From contig JAMPHU010000027.1 in NCBI GenBank assembly GCA_023663225.1, positions 1-38,929 on the forward strand: a stretch of DNA of 38,929 nucleotides, written 5' to 3'. This document shows positions 1,199-38,929 of the stretch, in pieces. The translations under genes and the position numbers were made by a program. Source of the stretch: Candidatus Gastranaerophilales bacterium (lineage in GTDB: Bacteria; Bacillota; Clostridia; Lachnospirales; Lachnospiraceae). Each line of letters opens with the position of its first letter. The first letter of the stretch is position 1. The notes beneath the pieces are model-generated. The model was not told the DNA's origin. It worked only from the letters and a program-made list of their open reading frames with translations, and searched no databases.

Positions 1199-2065
1199 AT
1201 GAATGTGATGGATATTGAGTTCCCGAATCTGGGAATTTATCTGGAGAATGTGCCCAAGAGTTTTTCGGTGCTGGGATTTCAGGTGACATTCTATGGACTG
1301 ATCATTGGGATCGGCGTGCTTTTGGGGATCCTAATGGCGGCGCATGACGGGAAAGTGATGGGACAGGATCCGGACACCTATTGGGATTTTGCGCTTTATG
1401 CGGTGATCTTTTCCGTGATCGGCGCGAGGATTTACTATGTGGTCTTTGCGTGGGATTATTATAAGGACAATCTCCTTAGCATCTTCAACACCAGAAACGG
1501 AGGAATGGCAATCTACGGCGCTGTGATCGGCGGATTTGCCACTTTGTTTGTGTACAACTGGGTGAAAAAGACCAATCCCTTTCAGATGGGCGACAGTGCG
1601 GTGCTGGGACTGATCCTGGGACAGGCGGTCGGCAGATGGGGGAATTTTATGAATCGGGAAGTGTTCGGAGAGTACTCGGACGGACTCTTTGCCATGAGGC
1701 TGCCCATCGCGGCGGTCAGGAGTCGGGATATCTCCGAGAATATATGGGCGCATGTGGCGGAAGGAGAGAATTTTATACAGGTGCATCCCACCTTCCTCTA
1801 CGAGAGCGCCTGGAATCTACTGGTGCTCTTTGTGATGCTTTTGTACCGCAGACACAAAAAGTTTCATGGCGAAGTCTGTCTGCTCTACTTGGGCGGATAC
1901 GGCCTGGGACGTTTTATCATCGAAGGGATCCGGACGGACACCCTGTTCGTTCCGGGGACGCAGATTCCGGTCTCCCAGGTGTTGTCGCTGGCCATGGTGG
2001 CCTTTGCGGTGATCGTGGACGTGATCGTGCGTCTGCGGATGCGCAAAAAAGCAGTTGCAGAGTGA
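1199..2065 (+). CDS. lgt: Prolipoprotein diacylglyceryl transferase
   Basis: The 288-aa polytopic membrane protein transfers diacylglycerol from phosphatidylglycerol to the lipobox cysteine of prelipoproteins, the first step of lipoprotein maturation. The Lgt signature GRWGNFMNREVFG lies at residues 145-157. The HPTFLYES motif begins at about residue 196, and a YGLIIGIGV-type first helix is present. About seven hydrophobic segments fit the family. A GGGAGG box at 1183-1188 supports the ATG at 1199. A terminator-like hairpin begins 20 nt after the stop, so this is the end of the ychF-lgt unit. Confidence 0.97.
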   Translation: MNVMDIEFPNLGIYLENVPKSFSVLGFQVTFYGLIIGIGVLLGILMAAHDGKVMGQDPDTYWDFALYAVIFSVIGARIYYVVFAWDYYKDNLLSIFNTRNGGMAIYGAVIGGFATLFVYNWVKKTNPFQMGDSAVLGLILGQAVGRWGNFMNREVFGEYSDGLFAMRLPIAAVRSRDISENIWAHVAEGENFIQVHPTFLYESAWNLLVLFVMLLYRRHKKFHGEVCLLYLGGYGLGRFIIEGIRTDTLFVPGTQIPVSQVLSLAMVAFAVIVDVIVRLRMRKKAVAE

Positions 2066-2085
2066 AACTGTTACGCAAAAAGAGG

Positions 2086-2144
2086 TTGTCGCATGATAGC
2101 GGTTTTTGCCATTTCCTTGGCATCAACCGTCATGCGGCAATTTT
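2086..2144 (+). terminator. lgt terminator hairpin (simple member of the dispersed hairpin family)
   Basis: TTGTCGCATGA at 2086-2096 pairs with TCATGCGGCAA at 2130-2140 with a single G-U pair. CGGTT (2100-2104) pairs with AACCG (2125-2129), a small TGCCA/TGGCA hairpin closes the top, and TTTT follows. The arm sequence recurs at 15552, 31239 and 38039. Confidence 0.75.
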
Positions 2145-2273
2145 CATGAACTTTTCTATATGATGATGGGAAATCATCCCACCTCCACAATATCTTGTGC
2201 TTTTTCCCCTTTTTTTCATTAATTTTCATTACAAATTTCAGCAATTATTACAATTTTTTGCAATAAAATAATG

Positions 2274-2446
2274 TAACAGTTCAGCCCTCCCATTCATAAA
2301 AGCGTCTGCTTCGCATCCGTCGCCGCTTCCGCGGCTCACCTTTTATTTCATGTGAGGGCGCTCCGCTCATAAAATGATATGTAAGCCGTGCTTTGTGCGC
2401 AAGCGCCCACGCGCAGCTTACATATCATTTTATGGCTGAACTGTTT
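2274..2446. repeat. 173-bp non-coding element with terminal inverted repeats (MITE-like)
   Basis: The 12-bp inverted ends AACAGTTCAGCC (2275-2286) and GGCTGAACTGTT (2434-2445) bound two palindromes. The first is imperfect, about 2286-2358. The second has perfect 19-bp arms, 2368-2386 and 2416-2434, around a 29-nt loop. The right end, read inverted, is identical for 20 bases to the left end of the larger element at 27864 (TAACAGTTCAGCC plus ATAAAAT). There is no open reading frame of note. I infer a non-autonomous mobile or mobilised element; no transposase is in the window. Confidence 0.75.
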
Positions 2447-2476
2447 AAAAAAAATTAATAATTTTATTGATTTTAC

Positions 2477-2505
2477 TTGTCAAACGCGTTATTTTAGTAT
2501 AGAAT
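2477..2505 (+). promoter_or_regulatory. Sigma-A promoter of the dcw operon (mraZ)
   Basis: TTGTCA (2477-2482), a 17-bp spacer and TAGAAT (2500-2505). The predicted start, near 2512, coincides with the first MraZ-type box. Confidence 0.75.
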
Positions 2506-2511
2506 CAAAAG

Positions 2512-2570
2512 AAAGTGGGATGAAGATACCATAAAAACCCATAAAGTGGGATGAGATGTCCATAAAGGGA
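2512..2570 (+). promoter_or_regulatory. MraZ-box repeat array
   Basis: AAAGTGGGA occurs at 2512-2520 and 2543-2551, and a diverged AAAGGGA at 2564-2570. The spacings of 31 and 21 bp are near whole helical turns. MraZ proteins are known to bind repeated GTGGG-type boxes just upstream of their own gene, so autorepression of the dcw operon is the likely role. Confidence 0.7.
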
Positions 2571-2614
2571 AGGTATCGGCGTGGCAGCGCCCACTTTGAA
2601 CGGTGGTGATTGTG

Positions 2615-3046
2615 ATGTTTATGGGCGAGTACAATCATACGATAGACGCGAAAGGCAGGTTGAGTATTCCTTCAAAGTTCCGCAGTATTTTGGGAATGGA
2701 GTTTGTGATCTCCAAAGGGATAGATGGCTGTCTCTATGCGTATGCCAACGAGGATTGGACGAGATTTGAGAAAAACCTGACATCGCTGCCACTGGTTGAC
2801 AAAGGAGCGAGACAGTTCGCGCGTTTTTTCCTGGCAGGAGCGGCCCAAATGGAGTTGGATCCGCAGGGAAGGATCCTCTTGCCTGCGTCGCTCAGGGAAT
2901 TTGCGGGACTGGAGAAGGACGTGGTGTTGGTAGGTGTAGGCACCCGCATCGAGATTTGGAGCAAGTCAAGATGGGATGAGGCGAATGCGGAAGTGGATAT
3001 CGACGATATCACCGCCGGTATGAAAGACATGAACCTTACCATCTAA
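2615..3046 (+). CDS. mraZ: MraZ, AbrB-fold transcriptional regulator of the dcw cluster
   Basis: The 143-aa product has the two SpoVT/AbrB-like halves typical of MraZ, each with a DxxGR element: [20 protein letters not shown] at the N-terminus and [15 protein letters not shown] in the middle. I chose the ATG at 2615 (MFMGEYNHT) over in-frame GTG codons at 2603 and 2606. It gives the usual family length, and GGTGGTGA at 2602-2609 sits as its ribosome binding site. MraZ is the first gene of the dcw cluster and a DNA-binding autoregulator; candidate binding boxes lie at 2512-2570. rsmH starts 10 nt downstream. Confidence 0.95.
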
Positions 3047-3056
3047 GGAGCGGACT

Positions 3057-3986
3057 ATGGAATTTAAACACTGTTCCGTTCTGTTGACGGAGACGATAAA
3101 CGAGTTACATATCAGACCGGATGGCATCTATCTGGACGGTACCTTAGGAGGCGGCGGGCACGCGTATGAAGTATGTAAAAGGCTAAAGGGCGGTCACTTT
3201 TATGGGATCGACCAGGATGACGCGGCGATAGAGGCGGCGGGGGAGAGGCTCTCCCTCTTTGGAGAGAATGTCTCTATCCTGCGCGGCAATTACTGCAATG
3301 CGCGGACGCTTTTGAGGGAGCGGGGCGTGAGTGAAGTGGACGGCATCGTGCTGGATCTGGGGGTCTCCTCCTACCAGTTGGACACGGAGGAGAGAGGCTT
3401 TTCCTACCGCTTCTGCGCTCCCTTAGATATGCGGATGGACAGACGGCAAAGCCTGACCGCGAGGGAGATCGTGAATGAATATCCGGAGCGGGAGCTTTTC
3501 CGTGTGATACGGGATTATGGGGAGGAGCCTTTTGCCAAGAATATCGCCAAACATATTGTGCGGGCGAGGGCGGACAAACCCATAGAGACCACGTTTGAAT
3601 TAAACGACCTGATCAAGGCGGCGATCCCCGCCAAAATGAGGCAGAACGGGCATCCCTCCAAGCGGACCTTTCAGGCGATCCGCATTGAGTGCAATGCCGA
3701 GCTGGAAGCGCTTAAGAATTCGTTAGATGAAATGATAGAACTGCTAACCCCCGGGGGAAGATTGTGTATCATCACTTTCCATTCCCTTGAGGATCGGATC
3801 GTAAAGAACGGTTTTAAGACGAATGAAAACCCTTGTATCTGCCCGCCGGAGTTTCCGGTATGTGTGTGCGGCAGGAAGTCAAAGGGAAAGGTCGTCACCA
3901 AAAAGCCGATTCTTCCCGGCGCGAAAGAGACAGAGGAAAACAGCCGCGCCAAGAGCGCGAAGCTTCGTGTGTTTGAGAGAGCATGA
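3057..3986 (+). CDS. rsmH: 16S rRNA (cytosine-1402 N4)-methyltransferase
   Basis: The 309-aa SAM-dependent enzyme (RsmH/MraW) methylates N4 of C1402 in the ribosomal P site. SAM-binding motif I ([14 protein letters not shown], residues 27-40), GIDQDD, the [11 protein letters not shown] motif and ERGFSYR follow in the family order. Near the C-terminus a short Cys-rich segment ([13 protein letters not shown]) precedes a basic KKPI region, as in other Firmicute RsmH proteins. Its position between mraZ and ftsL is the conserved one. Confidence 0.97.
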
Positions 3987-4013
3987 CTATAAATAGAAAA
4001 GAGGACAAGACCC

Positions 4014-15551: not shown

Positions 15552-15676
15552 AAAGAGGCGCTGTCGCGTGATAGCAATTTCTGCCGTTCCATACATCATA
15601 TTTTGTTCCGAAGCGGTGGCTGGTCACAAAATATGATGTATGGAACGGCCATTAGCTGTCATGCGGCAGCTCTTTT
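15552..15676. repeat. Nested double palindrome after ftsZ, probable terminator
   Basis: The outer arms (about 15552-15575 and 15653-15676) are the GGCTGTCGCATGATAGC-type hairpin seen after lgt, ending in TTTT. Inside is a perfect 24-bp palindrome, 15583-15606 against 15626-15649, around a 19-nt loop (15607-15625, TCCGAAGCGGTGGCTGGTC). Similar inner palindromes with the same loop length lie at 19349 and 31273. Just downstream, CTGAACTGTTA (15687-15697) matches the terminal repeat of the elements at 2274 and 27864. Confidence 0.8.
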
Positions 15677-15734
15677 ATGCGCAGGACTGAACTGTTACAC
15701 ATGCGGCCCGCGCGACGAGTAAATAGGTGAGAGT

Positions 15735-23934: not shown

Positions 23935-24014
23935 AACAATCAGTGATGCGAAGCAGACCTATTTTTGAATAAGAGAGGCCAAACTGTTACTGTGTGACAG
24001 AGAAAGGAATCGAT

Positions 24015-27833: not shown

Positions 27834-27863
27834 TATGAAAATCACTTGGCGGCGTCCGCGGGG

Positions 27864-28214
27864 TAACAGTTCAGCCATAAAATAGTTGCTTTTTAGCCAA
27901 GGTCGTAGCAAGTGTCATTGTGCGGATGGTATATTCCAACGCAGACACGCTTTCGCTGCACCTCGCTCGTAGCGGTACATAAGCTGCTAAAAGACAGCAG
28001 CTATAGTCAACAACGTTTACTATTAGTACCGACGGCTCGCTAGCGTCTACTTATGGAGTATACCGTCCACACAATTCGGATTACAACATTCGGCAAGAGC
28101 ACATAGCGCTGCTACGTGTTTCATCGAGTGAAAACGTGTCCGAATGGGAATGATTACCCCGCTAGAGCGTAACTTTCCGTAATATTTGGGCAACCTGAAA
28201 AGGCTGAACTGTTA
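27864..28214. repeat. 351-bp structured non-coding element with perfect 13-bp terminal inverted repeats (copy A)
   Basis: TAACAGTTCAGCC (27864-27876) and its exact complement (28202-28214) bound a sequence without a usable reading frame. Inside are nested stems: an 18-bp near-complementary pair with arms around 27925-27942 and 28053-28070 (GGTATATTCC/GGAGTATACC), a tight AGCTGCT...AGCAGCT hairpin near 27982-28002, and ACGTGTTTCA/TGAAAACGTGT near 28114-28138. A second, partly inverted copy starts at about 38648. It fills the gap between two divergent promoters. Confidence 0.85.
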
Positions 28215-28244
28215 TGCCCCCCCGTTTTGCGGGAAATTGCAGTA

Positions 28245-38172: not shown

Positions 38173-38200
38173 GTGATAAACTGTGCAGGGAATAATCGTG

Positions 38201-38207
38201 AGAGGAG
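38201..38207 (+). promoter_or_regulatory. Ribosome binding site suggesting a TTG start for the GtrA gene
   Basis: AGAGGAG is 10 nt before TTG at 38218. The alternative GTG at 38173 has no comparable site and would add residues derived from the repeat remnant. Confidence 0.55.
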
Positions 38208-38217
38208 TATTATTATT

Positions 38218-38658
38218 TTGCGAGGCAAAAATTGGAACGCGTTGATTCAATTCATAAAATTTGGCATGGTGGGAGCCTGTAATACGGTGCTTGGCTATCT
38301 GATCACGAATGTAGGTTACTATGTTTTTGGCTTTCACGAGCAGGTCTGCAATCTGATCTCCTTTTTACTTACGGTGCTGATCTCCTATCTCTTAAACAGT
38401 CGGTTCGTGTTTCGCGGCGATCAGGAAAGTGCACAGCCCTGGTATAAGGCGCTCGCAAAAGTCTATGCTTCTTACGCGCTGACGGAGCTTGTGCTGATGG
38501 GGATTCTCCTTTTTGTGGAGGAGAGGCTATTGGGGATCCCGCATTTCATTGCAACGTTCGTCAATCTCTGTGTAACAGTGCCGATCAATTTTGTGTTGAA
38601 TAAATTCTGGGCTTACCGAAAACGGGGGGCGGAAAAGGAAGAAGCGATTCAGCCATAA
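38218..38658 (+). CDS. GtrA-family membrane protein
   Basis: The 146-aa protein has four membrane spans and the GtrA pattern: QFIKFGMVGACNTVLGYLI at the start, NSRFVFRGD after the second span, and FVLNKFWAYRKR after the fourth. GtrA proteins are thought to help flip or deliver polyprenyl-linked sugars during surface glycan decoration. The only possible partner nearby is the GT-C-like protein 8 kb upstream. The last three codons and the stop (ATT CAG CCA TAA) lie in the terminal repeat of the element that follows, so the element supplies the end of the gene. The start is either TTG 38218 (preferred) or GTG 38173. Confidence 0.85.
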   Translation: MRGKNWNALIQFIKFGMVGACNTVLGYLITNVGYYVFGFHEQVCNLISFLLTVLISYLLNSRFVFRGDQESAQPWYKALAKVYASYALTELVLMGILLFVEERLLGIPHFIATFVNLCVTVPINFVLNKFWAYRKRGAEKEEAIQP

Positions 38659-38929
38659 AATACTTGCTTTTTAGCCAAGGTCGTGGCAAGTGTCATTGTG
38701 CAGATGGTATATTCCAACGCAGACACGCTTGCGCTGCACCTCGCTCGTAGCGGTACATAAGCTGCTAAAAGACAGCAGCTAAGTACCGACGGCTCGCTAG
38801 CGTCTGCTTATGGAGTATACCATCCGCACAATTCGGATTACAACAACCGTTAAAAACCATCTGACATTGCTAGTTACTAAGCTCCAGCGGGGTAATTGTT
38901 CCCATGAGGAACCGTTGAAACACGTCGGC
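38648..38929. repeat. Copy B of the structured element, right half inverted, cut by the window end
   Basis: 38648-38845 matches 27870-28088 of copy A almost base for base, apart from a 21-nt segment (28004-28024) that copy B lacks. After 38845 the match stops. 38872-38925 then matches the complement of 28114-28174 (AGTTAC, AGCGGGGTAAT, TTCCCAT, GAAACACGT in reversed order). The left end is eroded to TTCAGCCATAAAAT. The right end is outside the window. Confidence 0.8.

Follow-up and report, generated by a model that had tools for sequence, protein, structure and literature searches.

The window, by which we mean the whole 38,929-nucleotide stretch of DNA that was analysed, contains an element at 27863-28215 with inverted terminal repeats and a folded core, and further stretches that are related to it by their ends or by their core. 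The features are listed below; bit scores and E-values are those of R1, the covariance model built for the core module.

27863-28215, + strand: whole element, 353 bp, consisting of terminal repeat, folded module, right-hand segment and terminal repeat
27863-27876, + strand: left terminal inverted repeat GTAACAGTTCAGCC, 0 mismatches
27915-28077, + strand: folded core module ('module B'), R1 147.7 bits, E 4.2e-38
27917-27938, + strand: 5' arm of the long stem, 22 nt, pairing with 28054-28075 (86% complementary)
28054-28075, + strand: 3' arm of the long stem
28078-28201, + strand: right-hand segment, with matches in other copies to query 245-351
28202-28215, - strand: right terminal inverted repeat, 13 of 14 bases
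38648-38929, + strand: second copy, left repeat decayed, apparently cut by the contig end
38693-38834, + strand: full-length folded core module in the second copy, R1 165.1 bits, E 8.3e-43
2273-2447, + strand: 175-bp element (L039) belonging to this terminal-repeat family, its hairpin interior dissimilar, target duplication 7/8
15685-15698, - strand: terminal repeat standing alone next to a long hairpin, 1 mismatch
23977-23990, - strand: isolated terminal repeat, 2 mismatches

The initial annotation of this DNA described perfect 13-bp inverted ends at 27864-27876 and 28202-28214. These were confirmed, and the repeat becomes 14 bp long when one base is added on each side. Sites of the 14-mer GTAACAGTTCAGCC with up to two mismatches number six in the window, against 0.24 expected from shuffled sequence. 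The stable folding that had been claimed was reproduced (z of -5.1 as RNA and -4.3 as DNA, with none of 100 shuffles equally stable), and so was the lack of a reading frame, since 27863-28215 contains no internal ORF of 80 amino acids; the right end of the element is overlapped by two ORFs. No Rfam family had been recognised in the element, and none reaches its gathering score in the window. At E-values up to 5 the only Rfam match is one microRNA family (E 3.2), which lies far under the gathering score and is meaningless. This copy shows no 8-bp target duplication, as its flanks agree in three of eight positions. Its module contains a 21-base insert at about 28004-28024, and parts of the segment 28078-28201 recur without the module in other copies.

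A second copy near 38648 that keeps both arms of the long stem had also been proposed. Indeed, 38648-38845 matches query 7-225 at 87% identity, about 200 bases being common to the two copies, and both arms are present in it, while the 21-base insert is absent. Because the contig stops at 38929, apparently inside the element, the second copy was judged by its decayed left end only. A GtrA-like gene (PF04138; window 38173-38658) has its stop codon within this decayed end. The modules at 27915-28077 and 38693-38834 are both among the 36 sequences from which R1 was built. Elsewhere in the window, 15583-15698 is a probable remnant of another family member, and 23940-23990 is a probable remnant whose interior, judged by eye, resembles the type found at 2273-2447.

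The terminal repeat is abundant in the genome from which the window comes. The annotation had considered the case that only two copies exist. This case is refuted, as this genome holds at least 78 pieces matching the element on 33 of its 111 contigs, a lower bound obtained by scoring 40 of 150 first-look candidates. The 14-mer GTAACAGTTCAGCC occurs exactly at 25 forward and 24 reverse sites, and the 13-mer TAACAGTTCAGCC at 30 forward and 27 reverse sites; the reversed-pattern control gave 0 for each. At least 13 contig ends of this genome sit 38-45 bases from a terminal repeat (L054 for contig 58), so the draft breaks at the repeat and the true copy number is probably higher. The repeat is also spread among relatives. 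It was found as an exact 14-mer in 57 of 299 genomes sampled from the bacterial family, with this genome included, at as many as 77 sites in each orientation, and the reversed pattern had one site across all 299 genomes. Butyribacter intestini (G156) has 92 and 91 exact sites, and the matches of a contig scan were titled Lachnospiraceae, Eubacterium, Acetatifactor, Butyribacter and similar.

Target duplications were examined in 107 distinct intervals, 28-600 bp long, that have the repeat at both ends, with up to two mismatches per end and with 120 viral loci left out. The flanking 8-mers agree in 7-8 of 8 positions in 72 of these intervals and in all eight in 44. When left and right flanks were paired at random, the means were 0.99 (7-8/8) and 0.46 (8/8), and the maxima 6 and 4. 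Nine of the 22 intervals of this genome reach a flank match of at least 7/8, and clear target duplications are seen at L022 (ACAGCAAT) and L036 (ACTTCTTG). The element had been suggested to be mobilised in trans, to function as RNA, or both. Its mobility is upheld by the copy number, the shared exact ends, the 8-bp duplications and the lack of a gene; the RNA role is not upheld, as described below. We place the element at 27863-28215 in a large MITE-like family. Four elements of 28-42 bp (L375, L378, L379 and L401) consist of hardly more than two ends and have perfect 8-bp duplications; they are perhaps hairpin deletions following insertion. Open frames resume past the element in 12 of 76 elements, which could reflect insertion into genes, but the pieces beside two elements of this genome have no Pfam match and we give the resuming frames no weight.

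A viral scan with the bare 14-mer gave at least 120 stretches, at a length of pattern for which chance matches are expected. Four of 120 viral loci have intervals with 7-8/8 duplications (L251, L252, L260 and L313), and L252 and L260 are one element read from either side. L251 and L313 are members in IMG/VR viral contigs and have 8/8 duplications. A strict core pattern had no match in viral contigs and none in plasmids, and a phage search gave two matches of 35-36 bases.

A transposase that moves the family was searched for in several ways. The IS66, ISL3 and IS256 transposase families (PF03050, PF01610 and PF00872, respectively) have no match in the genome of the window, which is a 94.5%-complete draft. 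ISL3 and IS256 were searched for presence, and the loci found were covered by a general scan for ends 700-8000 bp apart; of the 11 genomes used for these other transposases, IS66 was searched in G000 and G156 only. No pair of family ends was seen around the gene in the IS66 loci (30 + 15, with 1.5-kb flanks). Thirteen wider IS66 stretches of relatives included five with placeable ends, and all five had another repeat: the relatives' IS66 elements have 8-bp duplications and the ends GTAAGCG or GTAAACG. The start with GTAA and the 8-bp duplication make the family resemble these IS66 elements. The remainder of the repeat differs, and an IS66 transposase with matching ends was not found in these loci. 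No autonomous partner lies between terminal repeats that have matching duplications at distances of up to 6.5 kb, and among the loci covered, ends 700-8000 bp apart gave no convincing one, the single match being AT-rich. In the long intervals of three loci from Butyribacter or relatives, no transposase was recognised by eye among the ORFs. In Butyribacter intestini the pair search covered the first 100 of 183 exact sites, and 12 stretches were fetched. Five of the 12 hold a near, decayed partner end with a 7-8/8 duplication, and three wider unpartnered end pairs (7.2-12.2 kb) have flanks that agree in 5, 3 and 2 of 8 positions.

The same ends enclose dissimilar sequences. We grouped the interiors of 76 elements with 7-8/8 duplications, seven of them, of at most 60 bp, being set apart, and obtained 12 dissimilar groups with no similarity between them at the threshold used. 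The ends often pair as a stem that carries two hairpin arms. With the ends removed, 11 of the 12 representatives still fold better than 100 of 100 shuffles (z of -3.2 to -18.8), and one folds no better than its shuffles (z of -0.3). In the genome of the window, pieces of the element at 27863-28215 turn up again, combined and oriented differently. The interiors framed by the repeats are interchangeable and fold by themselves.

The core module, which is part of the interior of the element at 27863-28215, is conserved in structure. Of forty copies found, four were left out (a pair that had been read on the wrong strand, a deleted one and a chimeric one), and the remaining 36 (25 from the genome of the window and 11 from nine relatives) were aligned. 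The consensus has 48 pairs with 97.3% of cells paired, and 23 of the pairs are changed on both sides. None of 500 shuffles reaches any of five measures, and shifting the partners by 1-3 columns abolishes the signal. Covariation and a covariance model were among the checks that the annotation had named; the module shows the former in 23 of 48 pairs, and R1 is the latter. R1 finds the module in 109 of the 299 genomes and 108 of 298 genera, with rough E-values and with copy numbers that are lower bounds, since at most 10 candidates were scored per genome. Terminal repeat and module occur together in 17 genomes against 20.8 expected, and so the two look independent of each other. In a set of 68 module sequences (the first 86 of 100 model matches, with identical ones removed), all four Watson-Crick pairs occur at many helix positions. 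Unpaired stretches, read by eye, are mostly conserved as well: ACGCTYTCGCT, CGYAGCGGTACATAAG, AAADDAC in the apical loop, and TAAGTACCGRCG. Modules also occur in groups. Locus L467 has three of them about 0.9 kb apart within 1500-4000, with similar coding sequence between them, and at L450, L461, L463, L464 and L465 two inverted modules lie about 145 bp apart within one larger palindromic element.

These data bear on the possibility that the elements are ordinary MITEs whose hairpins have no function, arising by inverted duplication or template switching and decaying neutrally, with the conserved loops reflecting recent horizontal spread. The many dissimilar interiors are in keeping with such an origin, as is the equal frequency of G-U and A-C mismatches described below, which fits the neutral decay of perfect palindromes. 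On the other hand, neutral decay would lose pairing with divergence, whereas the module keeps its fold and most of its unpaired bases in these 109 genomes, nearly all of different genera, and its helices draw on all four Watson-Crick pairs. We therefore consider neutral hairpins an unlikely explanation, though one that retains some weight.

Next is the question of whether the structure is conserved as DNA or as RNA. An RNA helix tolerates G-U but not A-C mismatches, and on double-stranded DNA these two are mirror images. Mismatches were counted where at least 70% of the sequences have a Watson-Crick pair. The module has G-U and A-C in 34 and 39 cells, spread over 18 and 22 columns (32 sequences from 32 genomes), whereas 6S RNA treated alike, from 30 genomes of the same bacterial family, has 49 and 12 cells in 16 and 8 columns. 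The contrast gives a Fisher p of 7e-5, computed over cells that are not independent. The set of 68 module sequences has a G-U:A-C ratio of 50:78. In the first alignment, which consists mostly of copies from the genome of the window, the ratio was 64:34, becoming 38:33 when one pair is removed, and the reverse strand of the module shows a weak opposite lean (54:30). A count over every predicted pair, in which the covarying pairs of 6S have 22.6% G-U and 1.5% A-C, was discarded as biased, because it exaggerates the contrast. Among pairs predicted on both strands, 6S keeps only two, which are too few for any statement. A neutral baseline was sought in one Butyribacter interior family, represented by 32 recent and non-independent copies of a single interior; it gives 27:3 with the structure of one strand and 15:16 with that of the other. 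This, together with the varying counts, indicates that the G-U:A-C ratio is no clean meter of DNA against RNA.

Other observations concern the same question. Both strands of the module fold about equally. The neighbouring genes are mixed, the commonest family accounting for 4 of 114 neighbours (114 of 125 neighbouring ORFs were taken for family assignment). Among the 58 modules counted for orientation, the upstream gene runs in the same direction in 32 and in the opposite direction in 26, and the downstream gene in 30 and 28, respectively. Rfam gave no match at the module in 20 loci of other genomes. The mismatch pattern, the folding of both strands, the mixed neighbours and the unbiased orientation argue together against a cis-regulatory RNA or an RNA read from one strand, and we favour folded DNA over these by about three to one. 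This bears on the RNA function proposed by the annotation, which the same four observations do not support. It also bears on a broader proposal, that the module is a new structured non-coding RNA hitch-hiking on several MITE families in the manner of HEARO/omega RNAs. Such an RNA would account for the conserved unpaired bases, the branched fold and the strong covariation; R1 scores one strand far higher than the other (165 vs 44 bits), and both the first alignment and, weakly, the reverse strand have G-U above A-C. Against it, G-U is no commoner than A-C in the module, unlike in 6S, both strands fold alike, and the module has no Rfam match, gene partner or orientation bias. A hitch-hiking RNA thus appears quite unlikely to us, and the conserved structure of the module is likely to be one of DNA rather than RNA, a view to which the evidence from sequence leads indirectly.

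The module is not confined to elements with the ends seen in the window. We examined 70 module contexts and found outer inverted repeats together with direct repeats of 7-10 bp in 16 of them, while a null with swapped flanks, which breaks both features at once, gave 1 of 241. Four rows of G203 were discounted (a palindromic end or a wide chance pair), leaving 12 of 70 contexts. Ends similar to TAGGCGATTGCGAAAC with 10-bp duplications were seen at L489, L433 and L434, with L486 and L488 close to them, in four genomes. L469 has GTTACTGTTTATGGGGTGGGG ends with an 8-bp duplication, GGTTCGGGTGTCAAAAGCCC ends with duplications of about 7 bp were found at five loci of one genome, and L476 is a single further case. 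Judged by eye, a GTTACTG end among these resembles the repeat of the element at 27863-28215, and the two are possibly related. No ends were found in the remaining contexts among the 70. In some other genera, the module sits in elements with different ends. A folded-DNA cassette that is conserved in structure across one bacterial family, is selected for its DNA shape and not for a protein, an RNA or a fixed sequence, and passes between transposon families differing in ends and duplication lengths is a tentative extension of this result, whose chance of being right we put somewhat below even.

Taken together, we regard the element as a non-autonomous MITE-like transposon whose module is probably kept as folded DNA and may aid the elements that carry it, and we assign this reading a probability of roughly 0.7. 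A DDE transposase encoded elsewhere would bind the terminal repeats, excise or copy the element and insert it with an 8-bp staggered cut. The module may be maintained as folded DNA, as a hairpin or a cruciform that could become exposed in single strands during replication, and a protein might bind it through the conserved unpaired bases. By such binding or otherwise, the module could aid the persistence or spread of whichever mobile element carries it, which is a guess. A different kind of folded DNA is represented by REP/RAYT-like elements, which are single-stranded DNA elements whose hairpins are recognised by the Y1 (HUH) transposase that moves them. Y1 transposases bind hairpins with bulges and unpaired bases; the hairpin core of the module has bulges, too, and its unpaired bases are conserved. 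However, the family has target duplications and terminal inverted repeats, which are hallmarks of DDE and not of Y1 transposition, and this makes movement by a Y1 enzyme very improbable.

No paper came up in a full-text literature search with the repeat sequence, and a search by title and the start of the abstract found no description of the family; most subscription papers lie outside the scope of both searches. The MITE-like family is thus of a known kind, and its sequence and modular build are apparently undescribed. The MITE-like family also explains assembly breaks and repeats between genes in a bacterial family that is abundant in the gut. What merits further work is the common, structure-conserved module that occurs in transposons differing in their ends. 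The usual reading of a structured non-coding element is as RNA. A widespread, strongly covarying structure combined with DNA-like mismatches and differing transposon ends would be a case for selection on a DNA fold, and it raises the question of which protein, if any, reads the fold of the module.

Among known systems, bacterial MITEs, in the account given in a section of PMC10969869, are small, non-coding and present in many copies, with terminal inverted repeats, direct repeats and stable stem-loops. The family is like them in size, lack of a gene, inverted ends, direct repeats, copy number and stem-loops. It is unlike them in that many dissimilar hairpin interiors occur between one pair of ends, and in that one interior module is common to elements with other ends. 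With IS66 the family shares ends that start with GTAA and the 8-bp duplication, whereas its ends read GTAACAG instead of GTAAGCG or GTAAACG and it has no TnpABC genes. BOX elements of Streptococcus pneumoniae have a modular build. According to a section of PMC10969869, they cluster and insert into one another. The family and BOX elements are both modular non-coding repeats with stable hairpins, a likeness drawn from description, and the family differs from them by its 14-bp ends with 8-bp duplications. HEARO/omega RNAs are structured non-coding sequences riding on mobile elements. The module resembles them in this respect, but has neither an Rfam match nor an excess of G-U. Finally, integron attC sites and REP/REPIN elements are DNA recognised by its fold. 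Single-stranded DNA has been considered for the STAXI motif as well, in a section of PMC2864571. Recognition by fold is the likeness to attC and REP/REPIN that we propose for the module, which, unlike them, is branched and enclosed by transposon ends.
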